From NCBI GenBank assembly GCA_003116975.1, contig BGKB01000030.1, positions 189,399 through 253,398 on the forward strand: a stretch of DNA of 64,000 nt. Reading direction: 5' to 3'. The notes beneath the pieces were generated by a model. The model was not told where the DNA came from, did not search any database, and worked only from the letters and a program-made list of their open reading frames with translations. The translations under genes were made by a program, and so were the position numbers. This document shows positions 1,651 to 52,500 of this stretch, piece after piece; position 1 is the first letter of the stretch, and every line of letters begins with the position of its first letter. The stretch comes from Aurantiochytrium sp. KH105. Lineage: Eukaryota; Sar; Bigyra; Thraustochytrida; Thraustochytriidae.

Positions 1651-4265
1651 GAAGAGCTAAACTTCGTCCAGGAGGCGGTGAGTGAATGGTCACCATACAT
1701 TGGCTAGCCTGCACGCTAGCCAGGCCCTACCTGCCTGCAGTGCATTACATCGCGGGTGCTTTCCCGAAACCTTCAATGGCCGGTGCAGACTCGCTCGGTA
1801 CCCTCCTCTTTGTCTGTGCGCAAGCAGCGGGCGAGGCCCGGAGCAGGCCCTCCTCGGGTAGCAGTATGGGGTCAGAACGCGCCGCGTAGCCCCCTGCCCG
1901 CCGGGCGATCAGTGGCTGTCAGAGAACCAGCGGGCACAAGCGCGGCGAACACCGGCGCGATGGAAGAATTGCGAGCGATACGGACTCCGAGGCGTCGAGA
2001 ACCTCCTCGAAAAGAAAGATCTGCAGCAGCTGCAGCGCAGAAGCTAGCTAGCCACGGTCGGGAAAGGAAAGGACCGTGATGATGACTCGGAAAGATGGGA
2101 GCTACTGCAGCTGCGCGAGAGAGAGCGTGACCCAGTGACCGTTGCTTGTGTTCTGGCGTTGTTTCCCCCGGTTATCAATCAAGCAAGCGACCTTTTGCCT
2201 GCTGATCGATAGCTTGCACAGTAAAAAACCAGTAATACCTTCCGTCGGAAAAGGTGTCGTGCGCACAACATGACGACGATGCCGAAAGTGATCATGGTGA
2301 ATGTTGGATTGCCTCCCAGAATGGGGGCACTTTTTTCACACCGCGCGGAAAGGAAGAAAGGGGAAAAAGGAGGGAAAGGATCGGGTAGATCACCGGGACT
2401 TAAGAAGTCTCCACTGGCATAAGTTCTTGAAGTTTTAATTTGAATAAAAATGTTCAATTCCTCATATATTTCAATATCAAAGGGAACGTATTCAAAAAAA
2501 TTCACGTGATTTTATGGGAGGGGACACATGGCTTATGTACCTTAATTCTACTCAGTGGACCTCACATGATAGCTGGTGAGTTCTCCCGCAGACCTCTCAC
2601 AGCGTCCCCAGTGGAATGTGTCGTGGCAAATTGTAATGAATGACTCAAAACCACTCGTTACACTCGTCACAACTTAGTTTGCTTCTATCGTTGCCTCCAC
2701 TGACGGAGGTCGCAGGTAGTGAAGCGCGGATCGGCGGCGGTTGGTATGGCGGCGGCGGCGCGGCAGGAGAGGAAAAAAAGCCATGCCAAACCATTCGCGG
2801 CGTCAGCCTTTCCGCTTGGTTGCAGCGTGAGCTGCATCGACGTAACGCAGCTGCAGATGGACGGACGAAGAAGCGGCGCGCTTCACGCACGAGCGGGGGG
2901 GCGCGATGCTTCTGAAGACGAAGCCGTCGAAGAGCCCTACCCTACCGCACGACGAAGCCCTCACGACGATTAGGCTAGCGAGGCGGGCGAGGCGAGCGAC
3001 GCAGATATACACGAACCAGGAGAAGAAGGCGTCGTCGCGCTCCGTAAAAAGTCCATACGAACCACAGAGAAGGATCGGATCTCTGCTCTTTGCGATCGCA
3101 TGTCGAGAATGAGTCTGAAAGAAGCTCAAGATGTGTATGGANNNNNNNNNNNNNNNNNNNNNNNNNNNNNNNNNNNNNNNNNNNNNNNNNNNNNNNNNNN
3201 NNNNNNNNNNNNNNNNNNNNNNNNNNNNNNNNNNNNNNNNNNNNNNNNNNNNNNNNNNNNNNNNNNNNNNNNNNNNNNNNNNNNNNNNNNNNNNNNNNNN
3301 NNNNNNNNNNNNNNNNNNNNNNNNNNNNNNNNNNNNNNNNNNNNNNNNNNNNNNNNNNNNNNNNNNNNNNNNNNNNNNNNNNNNNNNNNNNNNNNNNNNN
3401 NNNNNNNNNNNNNNNNNNNNNNNNNNNNNNNNNNNNNNNNNNNNNNNNNNNNNNNNNNNNNNNNNNNNNNNNNNNNNNNNNNNNNNNNNNNNNNNNNNNN
3501 NNNNNNNNNNNNNNNNNNNNNNNNNNNNNNNNNNNNNNNNNNNNNNNNNNNNNNNNNNNNNNNNNNNNNNNNNNNNNNNNNNNNNNNNNNNNNNNNNNNN
3601 NNNNNNNNNNNNNNNNNNNNNNNNNNNNNNNNNNNNNNNNNNNNNNNNNNNNNNNNNNNNNNNNNNNNNNNNNNNNNNNNNNNNNNNNNNNNNNNNNNNN
3701 NNNNNNNNNNNNNNNNNNNNNNNNNNNNNNNNNNNNNNNNNNNNNNNNNNNNNNNNNNNNNNNNNNNNNNNNNNNNNNNNNNNNNNNNNNNNNNNNNNNN
3801 NNNNNNNNNNNNNNNNNNNNNNNNNNNNNNNNNNNNNNNNNNNNNNNNNNNNNNNNNNNNNNNNNNNNNNNNNNNNNNNNNNNNNNNNNNNNNNNNNNNN
3901 NNNNNNNNNNNNNNNNNNNNNNNNNNNNNNNNNNNNNNNNNNNNNNNNNNNNNNNNNNNNNNNNNNNNNNNNNNNNNNNNNNNNNNNNNNNNNNNNNNNN
4001 NNNNNNNNNNNNNNNNNNNNNNNNNNNNNNNNNNNNNNNNNNNNNNNNNNNNNNNNNNNNNNNNNNNNTGATCATGGCGAGGTGTGCATTGTCACTTGTT
4101 CGTAGTACTTCTCTACACGAGAGGACGAGGGGAAAGGGGAAGGGGGGGGGGGGCTGTTTGTAAAAGGGAGGAAAACAAACAAGCTTTTGCATGCATTATT
4201 ATCAGAGGCTAAGTAAGATCGATCAAGCCCACCGTCACCATCACCATCACCGCCGATGAAGCGCA
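1651..4265. other. Spacer between SHMT and the GT47 gene
   Basis: No convincing gene was found. Short frames here lack family similarity and share no consistent codon bias. The stretch holds the SHMT upstream region, an AT-richer part near 2410-2520 and the 927-base gap at 3142-4068. A poly-G run lies near 4142-4152. A gene wholly or partly inside the gap would be invisible. Confidence 0.6.
3142..4068. other. Assembly gap (N run, 927 bases)
   Basis: Uninterrupted N characters. The true length and content are unknown. All frames reported across it are artefacts. Confidence 1.
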
Positions 4266-10184: not shown

Positions 10185-13100
10185 TTACTCCGCTGCCGGC
10201 GAAGATGGACTGTACGCCGGAGACGCCGGAGAGTACGCCGGCGAAGCCGGGCTGTAGGCGGCACCATGATCACCTCTGCCCATCGGACCAGCAGCCGGCG
10301 AGCTTGGCGAATACGCAGGGCTCGCAGGCGAGTACGCCGCTGCTGGCGAGCTCGGGCTATAAGCCTGCGCCGGGGAGCTCGGACTATAAGCCTGCGCCGG
10401 GGAGCTCGGGCTGTAAGCCTGCGCCGGGGAGCTTGGGCTGTACGCTTGCGCCGGAGAGCTCGGGCTGTAGGCCTGAGCCGGAGAGCTCGGGCTGTAGGCC
10501 GCAGCTGGCGAGCTCGGGCTGTAGGCCGCTGCGGGTGAGCTCGGGCCGTAGGCCGCCGCAGGGGAGCTCGGGCTGTATGCAGCAGCAGGGGAGCTCGGGC
10601 TGTATGCAGCAGCAGGGGAGCTCGGGCTGTAAGCCGCAGCTGGGCTCGAGGGCGAGTACCCAGGAGATGCGGCGTTGCCGGATCCATACATTGGCGAAGT
10701 AGGCGAACTCGGGTTGTATCCGGGACTTGCTGGGCTGTACGCCGGGGACGAAGGCGAAAAGGCTCCACCCGCGTTGTAGCCCGGAGACTGCGCACCCGCA
10801 GAGCTCATCCGGTTGTACGAAGGAGAGGCCCCTGCCGCAGGCGACTGCGGCTGGTACGCCGGCGACGCCGGCGAGTACGGCGAGCTTGGTGTAAAGGCCG
10901 GAGAGGCGGGACCGCCACCCGGACCAGGCGAGAACCCAGCGTCTCCAGCAGGCGAAAAGGGCGCGTAGGCGCCGGGACTCATCGTCGGACTAAATGCGCC
11001 AGCAAGTGGGGTAGCCATTGCGTTCGAAGGACCAAGGTGCGGGTCTCGTGCCACCTCCTGCGCCAGTTCCTCTTCGGCATCGACCTCGATGGCGTCCTTG
11101 AGCATCTCCTCATCAATGTAGAGGTCAAAGGCACCGGTACCGATGGGCGCAAGCTGACCAAGCATGATGTTCTCCGAAACAGCAGCAAGAGGATCGCACT
11201 CCGAAAAGGCAGCAGCGTCCATGAGAAGCTCGACGGTCTCCTCAAAGGAGCAACGCTGCAACGGTCCGGAACCATTGCGGTTGATGCCATGGCGAGTGAC
11301 AGGCTGCAGCTCACCACGCGCTGCCATAACATCCACCAGCATTGAAAGATGGCGGTAGTTCACGTAACTACCATCGAAGGAAATGACTGCGCGAATTTCG
11401 TTGAGCAGCGAGCGGCGAAGCGCCTCGGCACCTAGCACTTGCCAGATCTCAATGCAGTGGTTCGAGACGGTGCGCTTGTGGTCCACGCCTGGCTGGGCGA
11501 GAATGGCCAAAAGGTTCGTTCCGTCCGTATCGAGCACCCATTCCTTCTTGTCGTACTCTGCGCCGGTCTCCGGGTCCCAGCCCTTGGCCTTGTCAAACTC
11601 GCGCACAAAGCACTTTTTGATGTTCGGGATACCCCGCAGACGCAGGTTGTCGAGCAGTTCTGTTTCGAGGCGACGCAGAAAGATGAACTCGTCCATGCCG
11701 TAAAGTTTTTCGTCCTCCACGACCTGTGCCTGAGCCTCGCCGTCCTCCCCACCGGCTCCCTCGCCCTCCTTTCCGGGCGCGGCGCCACCCACGTTATCGC
11801 GAACGACTCGGATGTGCACCACGCACTCGTCACTGTTGTCATCGTTGGCAATACAATGCAGGGTGTCTCCAAAGTCGGCGTGAATGGTCTTGATGAGCTC
11901 CGAGTTGGAAATTTTCTTGAAGCGCATAATCTTCTTCTCGGCAACGATGCGCAGCAGCCAGGGCGAAAGCTGGTCCTGGCGCACGTTGTCCTCTCCATCC
12001 TCAATCTCCCAGTAGCCGCTCACAAAGCTGTAATCCTCCTCGACAACAGTCTCTTCCGGCTTGGGGTCAAAGATGATGCTTGTCTCCACTGCAAGCTCGC
12101 GGAGGCGCGTAAATTCGAGTCGCGACATGACTTCGGATGCTCGCGCCTCCGTGTTGCGATGTTCCTCATCGAGATAGACAGTGACGGAGGGCGTCTTGAC
12201 GTTCTTGGCGCCGTTGATCACCTCCTTGAGACGGGGCACACCCAGCGTGACGTTTTTGGCCGAGACACCGGCAAAGTGAAAGGTGTTGAGCGTCATCTGG
12301 GTCGCCGGCTCACCGATGGACTGCGCGGCCAAAACACCACACATTTCACCCGGATTGACCATCGACTTGAAGAAGCGCGACTCGATCTGGCCAATGAGAC
12401 TTTTGAAGGCGTCCTTCGTAAGACGGTGACGCACAAGAATGACTTTGGATGCCAGGGAGCTGCGAATGAGGATCTTGATGAGCTTGGTGGCGTTGTCCTG
12501 CGCCTCGCGCGAGAGCGGATCTTCACCAAGCACGACGACGAGGCGATCGCAGAGGGCGCTCACCTCGTGCACAATGTCGCAGGGGTCAAGATCCGAAGTA
12601 CGGTTCTTGTCGATGCGATACGTGTGCGACACATTCCAGATCATGCGCGCAATGTTCACAGGGAGGTGGAGCTTGTCCTCCACGGACATGACGCCACCGG
12701 GCTCGCGCTCTGAGGCCACGAGACGCAGGAGCGCCTGATCGCGGCGCAGCTGTTCCGCCTCTTCATTGAGGATCTGCATGGCCTCCGGATTGTGGCGGAG
12801 CTTGTGCAGAATGTTGGGCATCAGGTACTGCTTGCCTCGGAACATGCCAAAGTCCGCGTCGTCCACGCGGTACACATACGTCTCCTCGAACTCGCGCTTG
12901 CTCTTGCGCAAAAGGTCAAAGACTTGGGTCTCTACGAAGGCACCGTCCATGCCATCTTCTCCGTAGAGGAATTGGATAATGTCGCCGCGGCCATTGCGGA
13001 CGGTGCCATCGTAGCGAACGCTGAGATCCTCCAGAGCCTTGACGAGGCGACGTTGAATGTATCCGGTTTCGGCAGTCTTACAGGCCGTATCAATGAGACC

Positions 13101-15581
13101 CTCGCGACCGCCCATGGCGTGAAAGTAGAACTCCTGCGGCGACAGGCCTTTGAGGTAGGAATTCTCCACAAAGCCGCGCGACTCGGGGCCGAGATCGTCC
13201 TTGTAAAAATGCGGGAGCGTGCGGTACCTGAAGCCAAAGGGAATGCGCTGGCCTTCCACGTTCTGCTGCCCGACGCAGCCCATAATCTGGGAGATGTTAA
13301 TGAAACTGCCCTTGGAGCCAGAAGTCACAGTGGCCTTGAAGTTGTTCTCGGCCGTGAGCGACTTGACGGACTCCTTACCGGCGTTATCACGCGCCTCGTT
13401 CAGACAAATGTTCACATGGTCCTCGAAACTTTCCTGCATGGTGCGACCGGGCTGCACCTTGAGCATACCGCGCTGACCCTGCTTGACGAGATCGGCGACC
13501 TTGAGCTTGGCCGCCTCGAGGACATCACGCACCTTGGCAAGAGTCGCATCATCGGCGACGGTATCGCCGACGCCAACGGTGAATCCATGGTGCAGAATAA
13601 AGTGGTTACTCAGCTTCTGAATCTGGTTCATGAGCACGCGGGTGACCTCAGGGCCCATCTCGTTAAAGCAGGTGTGGATCAGGCCACCCTGCTTGGCGCC
13701 AAGTGTGGACTTGTCGATAATGCCCGTAATGATCTCGCCGTTTTGGATAAGCACCGCGGTGTCCTCGGGGTTCAAATCACGCGGGAATTTTTCCGACTTG
13801 TCGTGGCCGTTGGCCTTGGCGCTGAGGTTGATACCCGCGGGGACGATGGAGCTGAAGACCTGCTTGCCGGTCCAGAGAGCGTGGTAACTGCCGGCGCGAG
13901 TCTTGTCCGGAACCATGACGGCGGGAATGGGCACGTTGCCGTCAAAGTCTTCGACCCACATGAGCAGATTGAAAAGCTCGTTCTGATTGAGAAAAATGTC
14001 GCGGCGTGTCATGCGCCACGAACTAAGCAGAGAATCCTGCACAATACCCATGACGGGACGATTACTCTGCGGCGAGACAATCACCTTGTTGACCATCATA
14101 TTTGTCTCCGCCTCGGCGCGCGCTGTGAGACCCTGGGGCACGTGCAAGTTCATCTCATCGCCATCAAAGTCAGCGTTGTACGGAGAAGTCACACTGAGGT
14201 TCATGCGAAAGGTTGACCAGTACATGACGCGCACGCGATGGCCCATGATACTCATCTTGTGCAGCGAAGGCTGGCGATTGAAGAGCACGACGTCGTCGTT
14301 CGCCAAGTGACGCTCCACGATCCAGCCCTTTTTCAGCATCACCTCATTCGGGTCGCTATAACGCAAATCCATCTTCAGACCCTGATCGTTGATGATGTAG
14401 CGCGCTCCCGGGTGCTTGTCGGGTCCGTTGCGCACGAGGTTCTTGAGGCGTTCGAGGTTGAAGGCCGTGACGCGTTCTGGGACGGTCAGGTTGAGCGCAA
14501 TGGAGCGCGGCACACCGACCTGGTCGATACTCAGGTTGGGATCTGCCGTAATGACGGTACGCGCGGAAAAGTCGACACGCTTTCCCATAAGATTGCCGCG
14601 CACGCGGCCCTCCTTGCCGACGAGGCGCTGGCGCAGCGTCTTAAGCGGCTTGCCACTCTTCTGGCTGGCTTGTGCCTGGTACGGCAGCTGATTGTCCACA
14701 AAGGTGGCGCAGTGGTATTGCAGAACCTTGATGTACTGCTCGAGAACGTGGTCTGCATCACCGTTACGCTCGCAATGCAGGACAGCGAGATTGGCCTTGA
14801 CAATGTCGCTCAGCTTGTGAGTCAGATCATCTTCACAGCGCGCAGCGCCGCCCATGCTCACGCTGGGGCGGACCTGAGGAGGCGGGACCGGAAGCACTTG
14901 CAAAATGAGCCACGAAGGATGGCACCACTTGGGGTTGAGTCCAAGAATGCGCGCATCCTCGTCTGAGATCTTCTTGAGGATCTCGAGCGCCTGTGCAGCG
15001 GTGAGAACCTGCTGCGTCTCGCCTGTGCCGGGGATCTGCTCCTTGTTGGTCTTCTCGCCAAAGTTCATGACAATCCGGAGACCATCCTTGCGGTAACGAG
15101 GCTGCGGGAGATTGGACCGCGGGCAGGTCGTAAAGCGCACGGACATTTTGCTCAGGGCACCAAGACGGTTTTTGCCCTCGAGAAGCTGCAGCTTGTCCCA
15201 GGCCACCACGTCTTCATCGCGCGTGAAAAGGACGCCGCCATCGTAAAAGGAGACGCAACGCAGGATGGCCAGCACGGTATTGAGAAATCCCACATGGTAC
15301 ACGGGTCTCGCCAGCTCAATGTGACCAAAGTAGCCAGGATGGTTGTTGTCACCAACCGCTGAGCCCATACGCGGGTCATTTACGCCGCCACGAACAGGCT
15401 CGCCGTCGCGATACGTCTCGTGCGACGTCACGCCGGCGGGAATAGGTCTCTCGTTCCGCACGACCAACTTTTGCGTCACCGAGTAGCCCTTGAGCTCTTC
15501 GGGGGACATGACGCTAAACTGGACGCGGTCGATGCGCTTCCACGGCACCGACGAAAACGGGAACATGTGAGCGGTCGACAT
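10185..15581 (-). CDS. RPB1: RNA polymerase II largest subunit RPB1
   Basis: 1798 aa in one exon. All core blocks are recognisable: RNLMGKRVDFSARTVI, the catalytic NADFDGDEMN with metal-binding Asp471/473/475, FIYGEDGMD-like and HAMGGREGLIDTA segments, and the trigger loop TLNTFHFAG with His1102. The residue 1530-1798 tail is the C-terminal domain that recruits processing factors when phosphorylated. It is atypical: 12 consecutive nine-residue units of YSPSSPA plus AA or QA, flanked by a few heptads, with no Thr4 and no Ser7. The clamp-core zinc cysteines expected near residues 60-170 are absent; only the HPGYFGHIEL part of that block is kept. The start is Met1 at 15581, with Met6 (15566) as an alternative. 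It works in the nucleus in the 12-subunit Pol II. Identity is certain; the unusual ends are discussed as findings. Confidence 0.98.
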   Translation of the reverse strand: MSTAHMFPFSSVPWKRIDRVQFSVMSPEELKGYSVTQKLVVRNERPIPAGVTSHETYRDGEPVRGGVNDPRMGSAVGDNNHPGYFGHIELARPVYHVGFLNTVLAILRCVSFYDGGVLFTRDEDVVAWDKLQLLEGKNRLGALSKMSVRFTTCPRSNLPQPRYRKDGLRIVMNFGEKTNKEQIPGTGETQQVLTAAQALEILKKISDEDARILGLNPKWCHPSWLILQVLPVPPPQVRPSVSMGGAARCEDDLTHKLSDIVKANLAVLHCERNGDADHVLEQYIKVLQYHCATFVDNQLPYQAQASQKSGKPLKTLRQRLVGKEGRVRGNLMGKRVDFSARTVITADPNLSIDQVGVPRSIALNLTVPERVTAFNLERLKNLVRNGPDKHPGARYIINDQGLKMDLRYSDPNEVMLKKGWIVERHLANDDVVLFNRQPSLHKMSIMGHRVRVMYWSTFRMNLSVTSPYNADFDGDEMNLHVPQGLTARAEAETNMMVNKVIVSPQSNRPVMGIVQDSLLSSWRMTRRDIFLNQNELFNLLMWVEDFDGNVPIPAVMVPDKTRAGSYHALWTGKQVFSSIVPAGINLSAKANGHDKSEKFPRDLNPEDTAVLIQNGEIITGIIDKSTLGAKQGGLIHTCFNEMGPEVTRVLMNQIQKLSNHFILHHGFTVGVGDTVADDATLAKVRDVLEAAKLKVADLVKQGQRGMLKVQPGRTMQESFEDHVNICLNEARDNAGKESVKSLTAENNFKATVTSGSKGSFINISQIMGCVGQQNVEGQRIPFGFRYRTLPHFYKDDLGPESRGFVENSYLKGLSPQEFYFHAMGGREGLIDTACKTAETGYIQRRLVKALEDLSVRYDGTVRNGRGDIIQFLYGEDGMDGAFVETQVFDLLRKSKREFEETYVYRVDDADFGMFRGKQYLMPNILHKLRHNPEAMQILNEEAEQLRRDQALLRLVASEREPGGVMSVEDKLHLPVNIARMIWNVSHTYRIDKNRTSDLDPCDIVHEVSALCDRLVVVLGEDPLSREAQDNATKLIKILIRSSLASKVILVRHRLTKDAFKSLIGQIESRFFKSMVNPGEMCGVLAAQSIGEPATQMTLNTFHFAGVSAKNVTLGVPRLKEVINGAKNVKTPSVTVYLDEEHRNTEARASEVMSRLEFTRLRELAVETSIIFDPKPEETVVEEDYSFVSGYWEIEDGEDNVRQDQLSPWLLRIVAEKKIMRFKKISNSELIKTIHADFGDTLHCIANDDNSDECVVHIRVVRDNVGGAAPGKEGEGAGGEDGEAQAQVVEDEKLYGMDEFIFLRRLETELLDNLRLRGIPNIKKCFVREFDKAKGWDPETGAEYDKKEWVLDTDGTNLLAILAQPGVDHKRTVSNHCIEIWQVLGAEALRRSLLNEIRAVISFDGSYVNYRHLSMLVDVMAARGELQPVTRHGINRNGSGPLQRCSFEETVELLMDAAAFSECDPLAAVSENIMLGQLAPIGTGAFDLYIDEEMLKDAIEVDAEEELAQEVARDPHLGPSNAMATPLAGAFSPTMSPGAYAPFSPAGDAGFSPGPGGGPASPAFTPSSPYSPASPAYQPQSPAAGASPSYNRMSSAGAQSPGYNAGGAFSPSSPAYSPASPGYNPSSPTSPMYGSGNAASPGYSPSSPAAAYSPSSPAAAYSPSSPAAAYSPSSPAAAYGPSSPAAAYSPSSPAAAYSPSSPAQAYSPSSPAQAYSPSSPAQAYSPSSPAQAYSPSSPAQAYSPSSPAAAYSPASPAYSPSSPAAGPMGRGDHGAAYSPASPAYSPASPAYSPSSPAAE
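10335..10658 (-). repeat. 27-bp tandem repeat encoding nine-residue CTD units
   Basis: Twelve in-frame 27-base units encode residues 1642-1749 of RPB1. The unit protein is YSPSSPAAA (or AQA in five of them; one has YGPSSPAAA). Synonymous differences between units show that the array is not brand new. Confidence 0.95.
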
Positions 15582-24762: not shown

Positions 24763-24787
24763 NNNNNNNNNNNNNNNNNNNNNNNNN
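24763..24787. other. Assembly gap (25 N) inside a poly-C run
   Basis: Eight C precede and about ten C follow the N run, so the gap probably hides a longer homopolymer rather than unique sequence. Confidence 1.
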
Positions 24788-27255: not shown

Positions 27256-30197
27256 ATGGACAAGGTTCTGCTTGAAGCGTGAGTTTTTTAATTTTGGGAA
27301 GAGAATGATGCCTCGACCTCGCGCAGGGTCTTGAATGAAGCCAAAAACCAAAGTCTGACAGAGTTTAACATTTACGCGAACGTAGCAAGGTGTATGTGGA
27401 GAGCTATGTGCTCACGAGCGCAGATGCAGGCGGCGAAGCCTTCGACGCGAGTCGCTGGCAAGAAAGTGGAAGCGCAACGATTCGCGTCATGCAAAAGAAC
27501 CAATCCAACGAGTCCCACGTAGTCGTCGCTGGCATCGACAGCGCAAACAAAGACAAGGTTCTCAACGTGCACTTGATCCACCCCGACACAAGTCTCGCCG
27601 AAGTCTACGATGGAAAGGGATACATGTTCTGGACCCAGGACAGCTCCGAAGGACAGGATCTTCAGGACACCTGCCTCAAGCTTCGCTTTGAAAGTGCGAA
27701 TGTGGCCGCCGAGTTCGCACGCCAATACCGCAGGTGCCAGCAAGCCATGTTTGACCTGCACCGCGACACCGAACAAGAGTGGCATCGCGCCGACGTCCAA
27801 TACGAGTTCATGAGCCAAGAGTCCGAGGCTGCCCCAAGCGCTGGCAGCCAGTCCTCCAAGACTGCAAAGCCTCTGTTTGGCGGATCGTCGTCGCAGACTT
27901 CCTCATCTTCGCTCTTTTCTTCGCCTTCTGCGGCTCCGTCAAGTCCCGCGCCTTCCGCCTCAAAGAGTCTCTTCTCGTCGGCACCTGCGCCGGCCTCGAC
28001 ATCAATGCAAGCGTCGCCCACCTTTACCTTTTCTTCTCAAATCGCGCAGACGCCTGAGCCTGACGAAGATTACGAGGATGAAGATGACGACGACGAGGAA
28101 GAGGAAGACGAGGACGAAGAGGATGATGAAGACATCGAGGACGACGACGGCGAGGAAGATGCCGCGGAAGAAGATGAGGACGAGGAGGATGACTTTGAAG
28201 AAGGATTTGCCTCGGATGTCGACCAAGATAGCGACGACTCGGATGCATCCGAGATCAGCCTCGAGTCCTTTGAGTCGGACGACTTCAAGCCCCAACGCGA
28301 GCTTGGCCCGCCTCTGCTCAAGGATGGCACGGATTGGCGCTGCGAGCCATGCCGCACGATGAATCCGGCCGTGATTGACGTCTGCATGGCTTGCGATAAG
28401 CCGCGGCCTGGATCCAAGGCTGATGAAGAGAAGAAGAAGGAGGACGAAGCCCAAAAGGCGGCCGCGTCCTCGTTCAGCTTCAACCTTGGTGGCGGCGGCG
28501 GCAGCAGCAGCACTAGCAACCAATCGACCACGAGCAAGAAGCCCGAGACGAAACTAGATTTTGGAGGCTCCTCGTCCAGCTCTGGTGGGAGCCTCTTTTC
28601 GTTTGGGGGTGCGGCCAGCAGCGGCGGCGACAAAGCAACCCCTGCAAGCAAGCCAGCATTTGACTTTAGCGGTGGAAGCAGTACGGCGGGGCAGTCAGGA
28701 TCAACATTTTCGTTCGGGGCCACGAACCCGGGCGGCGGCCTCTTTGGTGGCGGCGCAACTGCCTCCAAGCCTCTCTTTGGAGGTTCGGGAAGCACCAGCA
28801 GCGCTAGCTCGGGCAAGCCCCTGTTCTCATTTGGAAATACCGGGGCTGCTGTTGAGTCCAAGCCTGCTGCGTCTGCTGCGAGTTCGTCTTCGTCAAATTC
28901 TACCCCGGCCGCTCAAGAGGCAGCCAAGCCGGCTGCTGCTGCTGCTGCTGCAAAGAAGAGTCCTTACCCTCCCATGGAGACAATGAAAAAGGTCGAGCAG
29001 TTTGATCCTAGCAAGCCCAAGCCCGCTGCTGCCTCGGCTCCGGCGCCGGCACCCGCGAAGAAGAGCCCGTACCCGCCCATGGAGACAATGAAAAAGGTCG
29101 AGCAGTTTGATCCTAGCAAGCCCAAGCCTGCTGCTGCGGTAGCAGCGGCACCGGCCAAGAAGAGCCCGTACCCGCCCATGGAGACAATGCAAAAGGTCGA
29201 ACAATTTGACCCGAGCAAACCCAAGCCTGCAGCGGCACCTGCCAAGAAGAGCCCATACCCGCCCATGGAGACGATGCAAAAGGTTGAGCAGTTTGACCCA
29301 AGCAAACCCAAACCCGCGACTGAATCAAAAGCAGCACCAGCCAAGTCTGGCGGTGGCCTCTTTGGGGACGTGAGTGCTGCGACAAATGTCTTTAGCTCTA
29401 TGAGCACATCGTCATCGACGGGAGCCTCTGGCGGCGCATTCGGAAGCAGTAGTGGCGGTGGCTTTGGATCGAGCCAGAGCGGGGTTGGCCTCTTCGGAAC
29501 ACCTTCTTCATCATCTTCTTCCCTCTTTAGCGGCGCATCCTCGAGCAAACCTGCCTTTGGATCAAGTGGGACTTCTGTCTTTGGCAACTCAAGCAGCAGT
29601 GGCGCTACCTTTGGAAGCGCGAGTCAGTCAGGCAAGAGCACTTCCCTCTTTAGCGCCAGCAGTGAAACGCCAAGCGCGGGTCGCAAGCTCTTTGAAAGCT
29701 CTCCTCCTGCGGATAGTTTTCGCGATTCAACGCAAGATGTTGACGCGGGAGATACTGATGACGAGGACTCTGACGCGGGCGAGGGCCCTTCTTCTTCTAC
29801 ATCGTTGTCCTTTGGCGGGAACGAGAATGCCTCTACGAGCAATGCGTCTGCGCCAGCATCGGGTGGGTTCTCCAGCACCTTCAAGTCCTCCTTTGGGTCA
29901 TCATCCGGCGGATCCTCTTTCAACTTTTCGGGTGGAGCCTCCAACTCGATGGGCAGTACCTCTGGCGGTTTTGGATCGCCATCTACGCTCGGCGGAGGGG
30001 GCACCTCGGGCGGATTCGGTGCTCCGAGTAGTTTTGGGACCCCAAGTGGCTTCGGCACACCAAGTGCACTTGGCGGCGCATCCTCGAGCGCCTCCGCCAG
30101 CAAGGAAGGCAGCAGCGGTGGTGGTTTTGCGTCTTTTGCAAGCAAACCACAAGGATTTGGCCAGGTGTCCCAAGAAGGTTCGTGGGCATCGAAGTGA
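27256..30197 (+). CDS. FG-repeat nucleoporin with Ran-binding-like domain and RanBP2-type zinc finger (two exons)
   Basis: Predicted join of exon 1 (27256-27278, eight residues MDKVLLEA including the split codon) and exon 2 (27386-30197), giving 944 aa. Residues about 10-130 resemble a Ran-binding/PH-like fold (YVESYVL, ATIRVM, LNVHLIHPDTSL, KLRFES then a terminal helix). A long Asp/Glu tract follows (about 235-300), then a RanBP2-type zinc finger with W325 and Cys327/330/341/344. The rest is Ser/Gly-rich with many FG, FGG and LFG motifs, the mark of nuclear pore proteins that bind transport receptors and form the permeability barrier. Four copies of a unit containing KKSPYPPMETM and KVEQFDPSKPKP sit between two FG blocks. 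The combination recalls Nup358/Nup153/Nup2-type proteins, but I cannot assign an ortholog. Exon 1 is inferred from splice signals and frame continuity. Confidence 0.82.
27279..27385 (+). other. Predicted GT-AG spliceosomal intron (107 bp)
   Basis: Donor GTGAGT directly after eight codons opened by an ATG in good context; acceptor ACGTAG at 27380-27385; a CTGAC branch-like motif lies about 30 bases before the acceptor. Splicing restores the frame of exon 2, whose own frame is blocked upstream by TAA at 27366-27368. Confidence 0.65.
28951..29328 (+). repeat. Four tandem SPYPPM-type coding repeats
   Basis: Units of about 84-105 bases encode KKSPYPPMETM-(K/Q)KVEQF-DPSKPKP with Ala/Pro linkers of different length. 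The units are almost identical at the protein level. Confidence 0.9.
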
Positions 30198-42871: not shown

Positions 42872-43024
42872 ATCGACATAAAGATGAAATAGAATGCACG
42901 CACGTGACAAGACGTAAATCGACTAAAGAGGAAACAAAGATACACGCACGTGAGGTGGTGGGTCGACAGAAAGAGGAAACTACATACACGCACCTGACAT
43001 GGATCGACAGAAGAGGAAACCAAG
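42872..43024. repeat. 41-46 bp degenerate tandem repeat with CACGTG boxes
   Basis: Four units starting at TCGAC near 42872, 42918, 42962 and 43003, each followed by an AAGAGGAAAC-like and an ACACGCACGTGA-like part. CACGTG occurs at 42863, 42901 and 42947. Confidence 0.75.
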
Positions 43025-43427
43025 ATGCACATGAGGTTTTGTTCCCTCTTTGTATTCGGTAAATCGACAAGAGGTAGGCTGCCGCAGCGGCTGCGGCTAT
43101 AACCATGACCGTCAGCCTTTCCTTCACGCTCTCTTCCGACAAGTGAGTGAGTGTCGGGAACTAATTATGCAAAGGAGGTTTGTTCCCTCTTTGTATTCGG
43201 TGAATGGACAATAGGTAGGCTGCCACAGCGGCTGCGGCTATAACCATGACCGTCAGCCTTTCCCACACGCTCTCTTCCGACAAGTGAGTGAGTATCGGGA
43301 AACAAAGATGCACAGGAGGTTTTGTTCCCTCTTTGTATCGGTAAATCGACAAGAGGTATAGATCGACCTCGGTTCGCCATAGTTATGACCGTCTTTATCC
43401 TTTTTCCGCCCAGCGAGTGAGTGAGTA
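43025..43427. repeat. 141-bp minisatellite, about 2.8 copies
   Basis: Copy 1 43025-43166, copy 2 43167-43307, copy 3 43308-43427 (more diverged). Shared parts include GTTCCCTCTTTGTATTCGGT, a GCCGCAG-CGG-CTGCGGC inverted repeat (perfect in copy 1, one mismatch in copy 2), and a CTCTCTTCCGACAAGTGAGTG block. Confidence 0.9.
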
Positions 43428-43562: not shown

Positions 43563-46500
43563 TTACTTGCGCACAACGGCGTTGGCGACGGCAACGTCAG
43601 CCGTGTGCGAGATGGAAACTGTGAGGTTGTTGACAGCAAGCATCTCGGACACCTGCTGCGGGTGACCGTGGAGCTGGACCACCGGCGCGCCCGAAGGGTT
43701 CGGGACGATCTCGATGTCCACAAGAGGAGCGTGGCCGCCCGACCAGAGCGGGCGCTGCTCCGGCGCGAGGCTCGAGAGAGCCTTGACGAGCGCCTCCTTG
43801 GCAGCCCAGCGGCCCGCAAACGAGGCCGCAGGATCCGCAGCCGCGCGGCAGTACGCAATCTCGCGCTCCGTAAAGTTGCGCGCGATAAAGTCCTGCTTCG
43901 AGCCGGCAAAGTCGGCAAAGGTGCTGACGTTCTCAACGTCAACGCCGACGCCAACACCGGATCCACCAAAGTTGGAAGACATGCCCTCCGCCTGCTCCTG
44001 CAGCGTCATACGGAGACGGTCCTTGGCCGAAACCTGAAGACCCTGAGGGGCAACCGCCTCGGTGGGGCCTGCGGGCACCTGCGCGGCGCCAGATGCCTGC
44101 GCAGCGATACGCGGCATGCCGCTCGACGTGACGCCGGCGGCCGAGCGGAACTCCCAGGTGCCAGAGGCGGCGCTGTATGTGGCGCGCGCAAGAGGATCCA
44201 GGTACACGGCCTCCTCGAGCTCCTCCGGGTAAGGAGGGGCCTCCTTGACCACAACGTACTTGCGCACGCCAGTCATGACATTCTGCGAAGTACGGAAGGT
44301 ACGGCGCTCGCGCAGGCTGCGCGTCTCGGCGTACTTGTCAAAGACGTCCTTGGAGAGCGTCGCGAGCAGGCGGTCCGGATGCACAATGACGACCTCGGCA
44401 CCGGCCTGGCCAAAGCCAAAGCTCTTGAGCAGGGCAGCCTCGATCTTAGGCAGCTCCACGGGCTCGTTCGGGTACACGAGGTACGAGTTCTTCTGCAACT
44501 TGACATCGACGTTGTCGAGGTTGCGGTTGCCCGGCACACGAGCATCGTTCATGCACTGGATCAGGCCGTTCAACATCCAGGCGCAGGCCGCACCCTTGGG
44601 GTGGCCCGTAAGGTACTTTTGCGCCACAACAAAGAGCACGTTACCCTTGGAGCGACCAAGGTGCTCCATCTGCTTGTTAAGCACGCCGGACTCGTTCGTG
44701 TCGTTGAGCTTGGTCGAGGTACCGTGGAAGCTGGCCACACCGAGGTCATCGACGCCAAGGCCGTACACAGCCAGAGCGCCACGCAGAGGCGCAATGCTCG
44801 GGTCATTCTTGAAAAAGCCCTGGCCCCAGGTCTCGAGCGCAGCGGCGCGGCGACGCTGGATAAGACGCTCCAAAAAGGCCGCATCCTCGCCCTCGGCGTC
44901 CGACTTTTGCTTGTTCAGGCTCTCGAGCGCCTCGAGCTCCATCTTGAGACCCGCACGGCGACGCTCCAGCGAAAGAAGCGGCGAAGGCGCACCACCAGAG
45001 CTGCTCTCGCGGGCCGAGGTGAGAATACCGCGACCCGGCGCAGGGATCGAACGTCCTTGCTTGTCCGTGGCCGTGCTCGTGAGAGCGAGCACCGCAAAGA
45101 TGGGAGCACCCATCTCGAGAGCAAGCTCGGCATCCATGAGGACCTGCATACCGGCACCCTGGGACTCCACAAAGCCAGCACGCGAGCTCGACATGGGGCG
45201 CGAGCTCTCGCGGACAGTGCGACCACGGCCCGAATCGAGGTCAGTGTTGTTGGTCGCGCCCATTTGCGCGAACTCGTAGCTGCCCTCCTCGCCAAAGTCA
45301 TCGTAGCCACCAGCAATGACGACGCGGGCCTTGCCACTGAGAATCGTCTCCATACCAATGTCGAGCGACTCGGCGGCCGTGGCGCAAGCACCGACTGGGG
45401 TTTTGATCGGACCCGAGCTGCTCATCAAGAGCATGTTCACCCACGCAGGCATGGTGTTGATAAATGACTCCGCAAGCGTGTCGCTCGGGATGTCCTCGTC
45501 GAGCGCACGCTGGTGGAAGAGACGCTTGAGCGAGCGCATGCCGCCCATGCCACCACCCGAGGTGTTGCCCACCTCGCTGACATGCACGTACTGGTAAAGC
45601 TCGTACGGGTCCGAAAGACCGGCGGCCATGAGGGCCTCCACAGTACTCACCAACGTGTACAGCGTCACGGGGTCGACACCCGTGGCAATGTCCTCGGGGA
45701 GGCCAAAGCGACGCGCGTCCCATCCGGTCGGGATCTGGCCCGCAATGTTGCGGTTGAACTTGAGCGCCTTGGCGATCGACACCTCGGCGCCCTTCTTGAC
45801 TCGCATCATCCACTGGCCATCGGAAGGCTTCTGCCACACGTCGCAGCAGTCCGCACCGAGCTCGTTGCGGTACTGAAGACCCTCCTCGAGACCCGAGAGC
45901 TCGACAGGGGGCATGTCGCGGTCGAGAACGACCGAATGCAGGAAGCGCTTGGCCTCAGGGTTGTAGCCCTCAAAGAGCTCGGGCTCAACGATGCGGATAC
46001 CGCAGCTCTTGAGCATGTGCTCCTCGTAACGGCGCTTGATCTCGTTGTCGGCCACAGGCTCGCCCGAAGCGGCGTCCACCCAGCCCGTGTACTTGGACCG
46101 CGGCGGGCCCGAGGGGAGCGGGCCGTCATGGTGCTTGATGAGACCGACCATCCAGGCGAGCTCGATCGAGCCCTCGAGCGAGAACTCGCCATAGCTTTCC
46201 ATCTCCCAGCGCGTGCGGGCGTTACCCCAAGGGCCGACCTCACCGTAGCCCACCACGACCACAACCTTGCGGAGGTCAACCATGCCCTCGAGCGCACTGA
46301 GCGACTTGCGCGCCTCCTCCGACGGAAGCGCCGGGAAGGGCGTCATGCCCAACCGCGTGCTGGCAAGCGGACCAGACGACTCGGGCGGCGGCAGCACGTG
46401 CGAGACATCGGCCGACTTGGCCTCCTCGAGCTGGTTGCTCGCGGCAATGGCGCGCGCGACGCGCGACTTGGACATGAGACCGCTACGGAGGCCGTCAGCG

Positions 46501-49500
46501 GCGTCCTTCATGTTCGGAATGACCGTCCAGCAGCCCGTGAGATCGGCCCACAGCGGCTCCTCCGCAGCGAGGGTGACCATGCGCGGGTGCAGGAGACCCA
46601 CAAGGTTAAAGTTCGTCTCCTCGGGGGCAAAAGTGCGGCAACCAAGCTTCTCGATGCCCGGGGCCACAATGTTGTTGTGCTGCATCAGCGCAGAACGCGT
46701 CCAGCCAATAACGCACGCCGCAAGACTGAGGTAGTCGCCCCAGCCCTCGCTCGACCACTTGTTGAGCAGGGCCTCGCATCCAAGCTTGGACTCGGCGTAA
46801 AGGCCATCCTGGCCAAACTCACCATGGTTCGGGGAGCACGGAATGAGCACCATGGCAGGGCGCGTGGTGATGTCACGCGACGCCTTGGCGTCCTTGAGGG
46901 CGCCGAGAAGACGGACCACGTTGGTCATCATCATGCGGTGCGAGACCTCAGACGAAGCGTCGATCGAGGAAATGTCCTTGCCCTGCTGCGCGGCAGCCGC
47001 AAAAGGCACGACAAAGTCCACGTCCAGACCGAGCTTGTCGTACGTGTAAGAGACGAGCGACTTCATGTCCTGCTGCGAGGCACAGTTGCAAGGGACGAGG
47101 TACAGCTTGCTGTCCTTGGCGCCAAACTCCTTGTAAATGCTCTGGAAGCGAGCGTACTCCTTGGTGAGCGCCGCCTCGGACCGCGCCGTGCGGATGGCCG
47201 CCAAGACCGTCGCGCCACCCTCGAGGAGTGACTTGACTAGCTCTGCACCGATCGAGCCCGAGCCGGCACCCGTGACGAGGGCGACCTGGCCGGCAAAGCT
47301 CACACCGCTGGTGGCAATCTCATCCATGCACGAAAAGTACTCGGAAGTGAGCTGCTCGTTGAGGATGCGCACAGACTTGTCGACGCCCGAGAGCGACTTG
47401 AGGTGCACGTAAGGCACCTGCTTGGACACGTGGATGCTCTCGTAGCCGTTCTTGAGCGAGGCCGTCGAGATCTTGCCCTCGCCACCCTCGGCTTCGTCGC
47501 CGCCCACGCCACGGTTCACCGAGGCGCGGAGGCGATCGAGCGTCGGGCCATCGGGAAGGTCGCCCTCCTCGCTGCTCGTCTCGCTGGTGTCCAGAGAGAG
47601 AGGCTCGCCCGTGAGCTCGCGCGCAAGCTCGGCCTCCGATCGAGGCAGACGCCAGCCAGCGCCCGCAACCGCCTCGATCTCGCTCTGCGAAGGCGGCAGC
47701 TCCAAAAGCGTGAGGCGACCGTCGCCGGCAACGTTGACCGTTTGCGAGGGGTTCTCCACGCGGGACGGGCCCGTGCGCTTGTAGTAGAGGCCACGGCTCA
47801 TCTCGGCAACGTAGCGGGCCGCATCGTTGACGCCGTCGCGGTCGGTCTCAAAGTAGTCGACGACACCATCGTCGAGCACGCGGACCTGGGGCGCCTTGGG
47901 CTCAAAGTTAGCAACATGCACTGGGACGTTGTTGAGCCAGTTCTTGACCTGCTCAGCAAGGAGCGAAATGGCCTGCGCGTAGTCGACGTAGCCGGCATCG
48001 TGCATCGAGTTGGCAAAGAACTTGACCGCCTGAAGGAGCTGCGGGGTCGCACGGTTGCACAAAAAGTTGCGGAACCAGGCAATGGGGGGCGCCTCCGAAG
48101 AGCTGGAGCCCAAGAGCCACTTGGACATCTCGTCAAAGTGCGGGTTCGAGTCCGCCGAGGCGTCGATCTCCTTGCCCTGGCGCGCGGCCTCGAGGCGGCC
48201 GAGCACGTGGAGGTGCATCTGCATGGCGTCCTGGACGACCCAGTTCCAGAACGAGTCGTAGACGCGGACACGGTTCTCGTCGAACTGGGGCTGGACACGC
48301 TCGCAAAAGTCCACCGTCATCTCGGCGTGGATCGAGTCCAGCTTCGACTCGGTCTCCGCGCGCACCTGCTTCTCGAGATCGAGAAGCTTGTCGGCATGAA
48401 GCGGGTCAATGTCGAGGAAGCGGCGCAGGGCGTCGAGCTGGGACTCCACCATGGCCTGCACGTCGGACTTGAGGGCGTTCAACTCGGCCGAAGAGACCTG
48501 AGGGCCGCCGGCAAAGCCCATAGCGGCGCCACCGCCGCCCGAGCCGGGCGTCGGGATGGTGATGCCTGCAAAGCTACCGTATGCGGAGCAGAGGCTGTCG
48601 AGCCAGGCCTTGGCATCCTCGGGGGAGCCCAGACGGCCCTTGGGAGCCATGCACAGACCATGGATGAGCACAGACTCGACACGCCCGGCTGGCAGCATGC
48701 GGTCGCCAGACAGGTACGAGCGCGCGGCGCTGGCACCAAAGCCACCGGGGAGGCACTGGCCGAGGAGCTTGTTGACATCGCGCGTGAGGACCTTGCCAGG
48801 GCCGTTGTAGCTTCCCTGGACCTTGCCGGCAAGCTCGGAGAGCGGCGTCTGCGCAGCCTCCTCGACCTCGCCAAACTCGGCGCCAAAGTCACCGGCGACC
48901 TCGTTCTGAACAGCACTCTTGCCGTTGCTCAGAGCAGCAACCGTAGCCGAATCCGCGACGTCGGCAAAGCCCTTTTCGAACTTGGCCGCAAGCATGACGC
49001 GCATCGCGTGAAGAGCCGACACGGGGGCATCGGGAGGAGGCGCCGCAGCGGGACCAGCAGATTGCTGCATCATCATCATGGGCGCGGCTGCGGCAGCGCC
49101 GGCGCTGCCACCACCAGGAGACAGCGAGACACCGGCATCCTCGCCGTACGACTTGCACGCGTCGTCGAGCCACTGCTTGCCCTCCTCCTCCGACTTGAGG
49201 CGCTTCTCTGGGGCCATGGTCGTGGCATGGAGAAGCACGGAAAACGTGCGACCGGCGCCAAGACCCCAGTGCTGGCCGAGGTAGTCCTTGGCAGCGTTGG
49301 CGCCAAAGCCACCGGGCAGCGCCGCGCTCAAGGTGCGGGCAACGAGCTTTTGCGTCACCGGACCGGGGTCCTTGTAGCTCGAAAGGTTGCCACCGAGTTC
49401 GGCAAGAGGCATCTCGCCGGCGTTGTCAGGGATGGCACCCTTGAACTCGGCCGAGAGCTCGCCCATGACCTCGTTCTGCACGGCACTACGACCGGCGCTG

Positions 49501-52500
49501 AGGGCCTGGACTGTGGTGGACGCAGGGACGTCGCCCATGGACTTCTTGAGCTTGGCCGCGAGCAGGGCGCGGAGGACGTGCTTGGCGTCGGGCGGGGCGT
49601 CCGCAACCGAGCCACCCGCAGCCGGAGCAGGAGCGGGCGCTGCGGGAGCGGGTGCGGCAGGGGCCGGAGCAGCCGCCTTGGGCGCGGGCGCGGCGGCCTT
49701 GGGCGCAGGAGCGGCCTCGGCCTTGGGGGCCGCCTCCGCCTTGGGCTCGGCCTTGGCAGCCTTGGCCGCGGCCAGCTCCTCCTCGAGAGCGGCGCGCTCG
49801 TCCATGTAGTCGCCAAAGGACGGGCCAACGTTTTCGACCTCGTAGTACACGGAGTCGCGGTCCTGCTTCCACCACATGATCTCCGGGCTGTACTCGTCGG
49901 CATCGCCGTAGGCGCCCGACTTGACCGTCTGCTTCGCCATGGCCGTGAGCGTCGCGGAAGGGCCCATCTCGATGACACGCTCCACATGCGAGCCGAACAT
50001 AAGGTCCTGTGTCTCAATCCAGCGCACCGGCATGGCGAACTGGTGAGCGAGGAGCTCAATCACAAGAGTGCGCACCTTTTCGGCATCGGTGGCCGTGTCA
50101 AAGTCCTCGAGAAGCTCCGCCATCGGCTGCGAGCCCGTCACCTTTTGGACCTTTTCGGCGTAGGCGCGGTCGAGACTGAGCACCTCGGCCGTGACGTTGG
50201 GAATGTAGTTGCCAACGAGACGATCGATGATCTTCTCCATGGTCTGCAGGCTGAAACGCGGCGCGAGCAGCTTGCGGAAGGCGCCGACGCCGGGGAGGAG
50301 CTTGCGCGAGTGGAAGGGCACATCGATGCCGGGAAGAGGGATGGTCGCCTTGCCGCGCTTGAGGGGCTCGGCGCGGCCGTTGCGCTTGGCAAGACTGGCC
50401 TGGGCCGTCTTGGCGCCGTGCTCGGCCAGAGCGGCCACATCGCGAACGCCCTTGGCAAAGGCCAAGTTCAGGGCCTCCGCAAGAGCGTCGAGGGCCAGCA
50501 GCTCACCGGCCACAACGTACTGCGTGAAGCGTACGTTGAAGTTGACAATCTGCAGCAGCGGCTTGCCCATCTCCTCGTTCTCGGTGATGAGATCCACAAT
50601 CTCGCTGAGCATCTCCGGCGTGAAGCCGCGACCGACGCGAAGCGGGTTCGCGGCAACCATGGCGTAGTTCGAGCGACCCTCGCTGTCGCGGGGAACGGCG
50701 TTCTGCATGACCATGCCGCGCAGGAAGACCGTCTCGACGAGGTCCTCGATGGTCAGCGAGTCGGCATAGCCGGCAAGAGCGGCGTACTCACCGAGCGAAT
50801 GACCCGCAAAGAGGGCCTTCTCAGGCACGAGGCCGGCCTCGCGGAGCTCCTCAAAGGCGGCCTTTTGCACGAGCACGAGAGCGGGCTGCGAGAACTGCGT
50901 GGCAAAGAGCAGACCGGTGGGCGAGTTGAACGTAAACGACTTGGTCGTCGCCGAGATCTCCGGGAGAAGAGGCACGTTCTGGCCCGTGCTCGGGTCCTGC
51001 GCCGTGAGGTTGCGCAGGTTCTCGCGAATTGCCTTGCCACGCGGGCCACCAAAGTGCACCGTGAACGACTTGGGGTTCTCGCGGACAATCTGCAGAATGG
51101 AGAAGCCAAAGCGAGCGCGGAGGTAGTCCTCGGCACGGTCCCAGACGTTGCGCACGGTCGCGCTGGCCGCGTAGCGGTCCATGCCCATGCCCTTGGACGC
51201 CGAACCCTGGCCGGTGAACAGGTAAGCCGTCGACGGCTGCTCGAGCTCGGCGCGCGCCGTCATGACCAGGGCGCGGTCCGAGGTGCGGTTCACGCTGACC
51301 GTCACCAGCATGAGGCCGTTCTTGACGCCCGTCTGCTTGGCAGTCACGACGAGCTCGTCGCTGCAGTGCACCATGTCCACGAAGGAGGCCTCGTACGAGA
51401 CGATGCGCTTGAGTTCACCCTTAGCGGCGATCTCTTCGAGACGAGCACGGGCCATGCAGGCGGTCCACATGCCGTGAACAATGGGCTTGCCATCCGGAAG
51501 GTCGGCGAGGACCGCAAAGGCCTCCTCGCGATGGATCGGGTTGGCGTCCCGCGAGCCACGGGCATAGGTCGTGCAGTCAGCCGGTGCCTTGACAACGGCC
51601 GGCTCGTCGAAGAGCTCGTAGCCGCCGTTCTCGGCAACATAGCCCAAGTTCTTGGCTTCGCTGTACTTTTCGAGAAAGGAAAGAACAGGGTTCACCTGGA
51701 ACTCCTGGCCGTCCGAAGTGGCAAAGTCGACAACGCCAATCTTCGAGGTGCCCGAGCTGGAGCCCACGTTGATAAAGTCGTCGCTCGGCACGCTGCCGGC
51801 CGAGTGCGACGGCGAAGCAGGGAACTGGCGCGGCGACTTGGCGGTGGACTCGATAAAGACGTTGCCCGAGGCCTTGATGTCAACAAGGCGGCCAGGGCCA
51901 GCAAAGCGGTTCGAGATGGTGCCAAGGTCAATCGTGACGCGATCGCCCTCGTGGATCTTGACGCCGGACTCGAGCTTGATCCAGGCGCGGGACATGAGGA
52001 GCTCGGCAACGGTCTCGTCCTTGACCTCGATGACATGGCGCTCGGCAGGGGTCTCCTCGAACGTGGTGGCGTACTCTTCCGGGGTTTCGTTGATGCCGCG
52101 AATGAGGAACTCCGAGTTCATCTCGACCCACATCTGCGGCTCCGAGGTGCTGTCCTTGGCACGTGTGATGCGACCCTTGACCTGCACCTTCTTGCCGACC
52201 TTGGGCTGGATGGTGATGCCCGTGATGCGAGCCTCGGAGCGGATGACCTCGCCAGCCTTGACCGGGGTGCGCGTCGCCGGGTTGGGAAGACGAATGCCGT
52301 TGGTAAGGTGCACGAGCTTGAGGAGGTTGCTCTTGAGTTCCTCGACAAAGAGAGCGCGCGCCAGCGGGCGCCAGCCGGCCATGATGGAAATGTCGGTCGG
52401 CGCCTCGGCGTTGCCCGAGTACTCATCCGACGTGCCAAGGTTGAAGGCCTCAATGTTGTCGGCCGTGACGGTGATCTCGTCGGTAAAGGTGTCTCCAGCG

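Follow-up and report, generated by a model that had tools for sequence, protein, structure and literature searches.

A C-terminal domain of RNA polymerase II built largely of nine-residue repeats, and how it may be read

The largest subunit of RNA polymerase II, RPB1, ends in yeast and mammals in a C-terminal domain (CTD) of tandem YSPTSPS heptads, and in yeast the spacing of these heptads has been probed by mutation. The functional unit of the yeast tail consists of three Ser-Pro dipeptides and two tyrosines seven residues apart (PMC6548728, with PMC9451162 in agreement; these and the other papers cited are drawn on in excerpt). A single alanine placed between adjacent heptads is lethal, whereas insertions between heptad pairs are tolerated (PMC6548728), up to a point, as seven alanines between pairs are again lethal (PMC6548728; PMC2894937). 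The DNA analysed here (the window, 64,000 nucleotides in its whole length) encodes an RPB1 in which two residues follow every heptad over much of the tail, and the question that this locus raises is how such a tail could serve a working polymerase.

An earlier note on this DNA had read the gene as RPB1, and that identification was confirmed by domain and structure searches. The minus strand holds a single unbroken reading frame of 1798 aa at 10185-15581, in which all seven Pfam models of the RPB1 core are matched (E 1e-30 to 4e-97) and the YNADFDGDEMN motif is found. The closest solved structures in a PDB search with the whole protein are chains named RPB1, the best of which we take to be mammalian, fission-yeast and budding-yeast entries. 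The gene and the parts of its tail are arranged as follows.

10185..15581, minus strand: RPB1 gene, from Pfam Rpb1 domains 1-7 and the PDB matches above.
10185..10967, minus strand: CTD of 260 residues, from residue counts and a match of the tail alone to PF05001.
10659..10967, minus strand: proximal CTD, degenerate, with few heptads (YSPASPA, YSPASPG, FSPSSPA, YQPQSPA, YNPSSPT), from the translation.
10335..10658, minus strand: nonamer array, 12 units of YSPSSPA-(A/Q)A with unit 5 reading YGPSSPAAA, from the translation, a tandem-repeat scan and a DNA pattern.
10257..10334, minus strand: a YSPASPA-YSPSSPA pair followed by a non-repeat insert, AGPMGRGDHGAA, from the translation.
10185..10256, minus strand: C-terminal end, with canonical-length YSPASPA-YSPASPA-YSPSSPA in tandem, then AE and the stop codon, from the translation.

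The array spans residues 1642-1749 and comprises 12 consecutive in-frame nonamers, exactly as the earlier note had claimed for 10335-10658. Each nonamer is an ordinary heptad followed by a two-residue spacer of Ala-Ala or Gln-Ala. The units are six YSPSSPAAA, five YSPSSPAQA and one YGPSSPAAA, in an order that runs from five YSPSSPAAA, with the YGPSSPAAA among them, through the five YSPSSPAQA to a last YSPSSPAAA. Conservation within the unit is close to complete, with Ser4, Ser5 and Ala7 present in 12 of 12 nonamers and Ser-Pro dipeptides retained at 23 of 24 array positions. Thus the claim that position 4 is serine stands without exception, whereas the claim that Ser2 and Ser5 are both kept holds throughout for Ser5 and in 11 of 12 units for Ser2, unit 5 having glycine there. 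The spacer is likewise restricted: codon 9 specifies alanine in every unit by way of four different codons, codon 8 specifies alanine in seven units and glutamine in five, and there are no slips to 8 or 10 residues across the 12 units.

This regularity is not expected from the composition of the tail: when the tail residues were shuffled 10,000 times, no more than three nine-residue Tyr-Tyr spacings ever fell in succession, against the twelve observed. At the DNA level, 11.6 copies of a 27-bp unit (86% matches) were placed at 10332-10644 by Tandem Repeats Finder. A general nonamer DNA pattern has eight matches in the window, every one in the array, the last of them extending 8 bases into the heptad beyond it; 100 dinucleotide shuffles gave a mean of 0.

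Outside the array the tail is more heterogeneous. The 260 residues include 25 Tyr, 49 Ser-Pro dipeptides, 2 Thr, 2 Arg and no Lys, and the Tyr-Tyr spacing is nine residues in 12 of 24 cases and seven in 5 of 24, so that the tail is not a canonical heptad CTD with tyrosines seven apart through most of its length. Strict YSP(A/S)SPA heptads outside the nonamers, of which about six had been noted earlier, number exactly six (residues 1569, 1750, 1757, 1776, 1783 and 1790). Four of them carry Ala4, and those at 1757 and 1790 are followed by Ala-Ala rather than by Tyr. The decapeptide YSPxSPxYSP, which corresponds to the yeast-type unit, does not occur within the array. Its three overlapping matches, at residues 1750, 1776 and 1783, are all found beyond the C-terminal edge of the array, and two of them lie in the C-terminal end at 10185..10256. 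These distal heptads are also the best stretch for PF05001, a 14-residue double-heptad model that matches the isolated tail with 32.3 bits against a cut-off of 20.3 (E 1e-7). PF05001 is not listed in the scan of the whole protein, even at E 10; the idea that the Pfam repeat model fails on this RPB1 was nevertheless rejected, given its match to the isolated tail.

Comparison with known CTDs narrows down what is out of the ordinary. Like the canonical YSPTSPS tail of yeast and mammals, this one ends RPB1 with tandem Tyr-Ser-Pro-x-Ser-Pro units, but its array has a nine-residue unit with Ser4 and Ala7, and the tail has no Lys. The earlier note had counted Ala7 among the departures from the norm; it is indeed present in all 12 units, but it is not special to them. 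The Phytophthora RPB1 CTD, known to us by description, consists of YSPTSPA heptads and thus has Ala7 in common with the tail studied here, from which its Thr4 and its spacer-free heptads set it apart (PMC11062530). The CTD of Mastigamoeba invertens, with 25 YSPASPA heptads, compromises growth when placed in budding yeast; it shares Ala7, and its Ala4 recurs in the four strict heptads mentioned above, but its heptads have no spacer (PMC4977518). As judged from the sequence, then, what sets the array apart is not Ala7 but the pair of residues that separates each heptad from the next. The nearest architecture is found in the laboratory CTDs of yeast in which alanine splits the heptads (PMC6548728; PMC2894937), where one Ala in each gap is already lethal; the natural array has two residues after every heptad over 12 units.

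The widening by two residues of the Ser-Pro spacing between units, which the earlier note had also pointed out, is seen both in the Tyr spacings and in alignment to known proteins. With the tail alone as query, RPB1 chains were matched in the PDB (best E 1.8e-18), and in the alignment to a 1970-residue RPB1 chain, presumably the human one, most spacers appear as two-residue insertions. A literature search at the level of titles and abstract openings found, among the matches listed, no nonamer CTD and no labyrinthulomycete CTD. An earlier description is possible, and the nonamer tail may already be in print; its newness is unproven. The comparison within the stramenopiles covers one described CTD, that of Phytophthora, which has heptads.

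The DNA of the units bears on how the array arose. Units 2-12 differ from one another at a mean of 5.4 of 27 nucleotides, whereas 8.3 would be expected of independent codings of the same peptide with the codon usage of this RPB1 gene, and they therefore share partial ancestry through 27-bp duplication. Only units 2 and 3 have the same DNA, so that 11 distinct sequences are found among the 12 units. Unit 1 stands apart, differing from the other units at 11-16 of 27 nucleotides, with a mean of 13 that is above the 8.3 for independent codings. It uses the other class of serine codons at positions 2, 4 and 5, and still encodes the same YSPSSPAAA as five other units.

Differences among the units are mostly silent. 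Over all 66 unit pairs pN/pS is 0.23, and with codon 8 left out pN is 0.077 against a pS of 0.56. Measured against the unit consensus, 37 codon cells carry silent changes and six carry amino-acid-changing ones, five of the six being at the Ala/Gln position and the other being Gly2 of unit 5. In a neutral simulation, in which each unit received as many nucleotide changes as it actually carries, at random places and with transitions weighted twice, 10,000 runs gave a mean of 35 amino-acid-changing cells and a minimum of 23. All of these statistics treat the units as independent despite their shared descent by duplication, and should be taken as indicative, not as a rigorous test. As such, they suggest that the array was built by 27-bp duplication and then maintained by selection at the level of the protein.

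The reading that we favour, at a probability of roughly 55%, is that the array is a spaced-heptad CTD, in which each nonamer would provide one complete phospho-acceptor heptad plus a linker and would be read singly. The scheme starts from an intact RPB1 gene that bears the array and, as the unit sequences show, from units 2-12 that have part of their DNA ancestry in common, as 27-bp duplication would yield. Purifying selection, to which the codon statistics point, would then have held the amino acids of the unit while allowing Ala or Gln at position 8. Kinases of the CDK7/CDK9 type and single-repeat readers would continue to act on the Ser5-Pro and Ser2-Pro of every nonamer, the linker between heptads being presumed flexible. 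For Phytophthora, the source describes CDK7 as phosphorylating the YSPTSPA tail in vitro, with S2A and T4A forms still phosphorylated and S5A the sole exception, and its discussion states that changes to Ser2 or Ser5 impair phosphorylation of the tail (PMC11062530). Functions that need two tyrosines seven apart would fall to the small number of canonical pairs, chiefly those of the C-terminal triplet, whose units would serve factors spanning two repeats; alternatively, readers in this lineage may no longer need two tyrosines at that distance. One or the other is needed because a single-alanine insertion is lethal in yeast, so that single reading of nonamers calls for either distal canonical pairs or changed readers. 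The earlier expectation that kinases and readers meet a changed register would, we infer, apply to those that span at least two repeats, with single-repeat readers unaffected.

The strongest competitor is tolerated drift, whereby a 27-bp minisatellite expanded in a genome full of repeats, leaving the spacer without a function and the essential work to the C-terminal heptads. It is a serious rival, given that the window is rich in tandem repeats (82 rows in the repeat scan, some overlapping) and that more canonical heptads remain on the flanks of the array. The identity of units 2 and 3 and the adjacency of the five AQA units are, moreover, what local duplication yields. Against it, amino-acid-changing differences are far below those of the neutral simulation, and unit 1 arrives at nine residues identical to those of five other units through codons nearly unrelated to theirs. 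Budding yeast requires about eight CTD heptads, and only the six strict ones lie outside the array to carry the load that drift would leave to them. On balance we regard drift as unlikely, albeit the first alternative to be reckoned with.

More doubtful still is a re-registered code. Here the nonamer itself would have become the functional unit, and those capping, Mediator and processing factors whose contacts extend over more than one repeat would have been retuned in this lineage to a period of nine. The evenness of the array and the narrow choice of spacer, AA or QA, are as this would have it, and readers that engage several repeats would encounter the new period. For instance, the Cgt1 capping enzyme has been seen with a 17-residue CTD peptide bound (PMC4977518), and yeast Ess1 engages 4-5 or more CTD repeats (PMC7994582), as far as the excerpts of these papers go. 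However, canonical-length heptads remain on either side of the array, and duplication of a 27-bp unit would by itself yield the regularity. Were the re-registered code true, Pol II would here be working with a kind of tail that yeast reportedly does not survive.

An artefact of assembly or gene model, with the array collapsed, expanded or misread, is very improbable, since, for all that short tandem repeats are often miscounted and N runs do occur in the sequence (3142-4068 and 24763-24787), no more than two of the 12 units are alike in DNA, the nearest N run is 6 kb away and the frame runs on through canonical heptads to its stop.

Tails that resemble CTDs were also sought in contigs of viruses, bacteria and archaea. 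A specific nonamer DNA pattern had no match in the viral contigs and none in the genome contigs, an absence that, in collections of this scope, says almost nothing about stramenopiles. A looser nonamer pattern picked out five stretches in the viral contigs, none of them CTD-like on translation. As a positive control, a heptad pattern found six stretches in the viral contigs, four of them CTD-like, the other two (L031 and L032) having just 3 and 6 residues between stops. Of 23 stretches in the genome contigs, one (L049) was judged by eye to be CTD-like, and the other 22 are short frames or other low-complexity repeats. A search of the viral contigs with the whole RPB1 gave 16 loci, two of which (L005 and L008) have CTD-like tails by a frame scan requiring at least three repeat motifs, and a second search with L005 gave 12 loci, all on contigs from the first.

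The five tails so found (viral L005, L008, L033 and L034, and L049) consist of YSPTSPA- or YSPTSPC-type heptads. Of their 37 Tyr-x-Pro spacings, 28 measure seven residues, and a spacing of nine does not occur. They are weak comparators, four being viral, with L033 and L034 known from short fragments read for the tail only; L005, L008 and L049 have their tails on RPB1-like proteins.

Some of these loci merit a record of their own. Giant-virus-like IMG/VR contigs (L005:2956-7458 and L008:2818-7727) encode RPB1 with host-like heptad tails, YSPTSPC and YSPTSPA, and such tails are also seen in L033 and L034. PF05001 is matched in L008 and falls just below the cut-off in L005. A literature search on CTD tails of giant-virus RPB1 found none among the matches listed, as far as the partial records of these go. 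The L008 RPB1 is broken into two frames (974 and 653 aa) at L008:5742-5766, in a conserved region near QMTLNTFH, an arrangement that suggests an intron, an intein or a frameshift. The 3678-bp contig L049 is filed under a Gemmatimonadaceae MAG, but its divergent RPB1-like protein, which has YSPTSPA heptads and is 31% identical to the window's RPB1 over 371 aa, makes it a probable contaminant from a eukaryote or a giant virus.

A second peculiarity of the gene lies near its 5' end.

15072-15500, minus strand: altered clamp region, RPB1 residues about 28-170, from alignments to PDB RPB1 chains and to the viral proteins.

The Cys/His positions that are altered here are, we assume, the ligands of the two zinc sites in the RPB1 clamp. 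In the ligand segments the first CxxC, the CPGH and the second CxxC are replaced, and Cys153, of the later pair, is the only ligand that stays. DPRMGSAVGDNNHPGYFGHIEL occupies the place of CxxC...CPGH and CVSFYDGG that of CVCxxC, and an insertion of 11-13 residues (13 when aligned to the viral proteins, 11 when aligned to the PDB chains) lies just upstream of the altered segments. All six aligned viral-contig proteins retain the clamp cysteines and histidine, L005 with two extra residues in its second pair. Among 10 viral proteins, L007 has a changed first site and L009 is without the second, whereas the window's RPB1 is without both. A local frameshift was rejected as the cause, there being no CxxC in the other two frames of the clamp region. 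From the alignments, both clamp zinc sites seem to have been lost, a loss that does not outweigh the other evidence for RPB1 identity.

The remainder of the window provides the setting.

43563-55964, minus strand: fused type I fatty-acid synthase (FAS) of 4133 aa, with its domains in one frame.
43015-43358: tandem repeat with a 141-bp unit, 2.4 copies at 87% match, from the tandem-repeat scan.
28953-29317, plus strand: protein repeat of about 30-35 residues, KKSPYPPMETM(K/Q)KVEQFDPSKPKPA, in four copies within the reading frame 27390-30197.
3142-4068 and 24763-24787: N runs of 927 and 25 bases, either gaps or withheld stretches.

The single frame of the FAS includes Fas domains of both the beta and the alpha type, a PPTase domain and two stretches of ACP. 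Such a single chain agrees with the account of Schizochytrium as having one type I FAS, in the part of that report drawn on here (PMC11145866), and makes a labyrinthulomycete source, probably a thraustochytrid, plausible though not proven. Just downstream of this reading frame is the 141-bp repeat, the top-scoring repeat of the window. The 935-aa protein of 27390-30197 had no match in a Pfam scan, and the low-GC bin at 2001-4000 is due to the N run there.

The rule of two tyrosines seven residues apart derives from yeast mutants, and the main array described here breaks it in every unit. A natural, working exception would place the rule with the readers of yeast rather than with the CTD as such, and the array would then be a ready-made set of substrates for sorting factors that need one repeat from those that need two. 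If the array is instead drift backed by distal heptads, the tail would give a natural estimate of the minimum canonical tail that suffices. The altered clamp, if real, would mean a Pol II clamp that folds without zinc. Should the host be one of the oil-producing thraustochytrids, it ought to be open to culture and to genetics.
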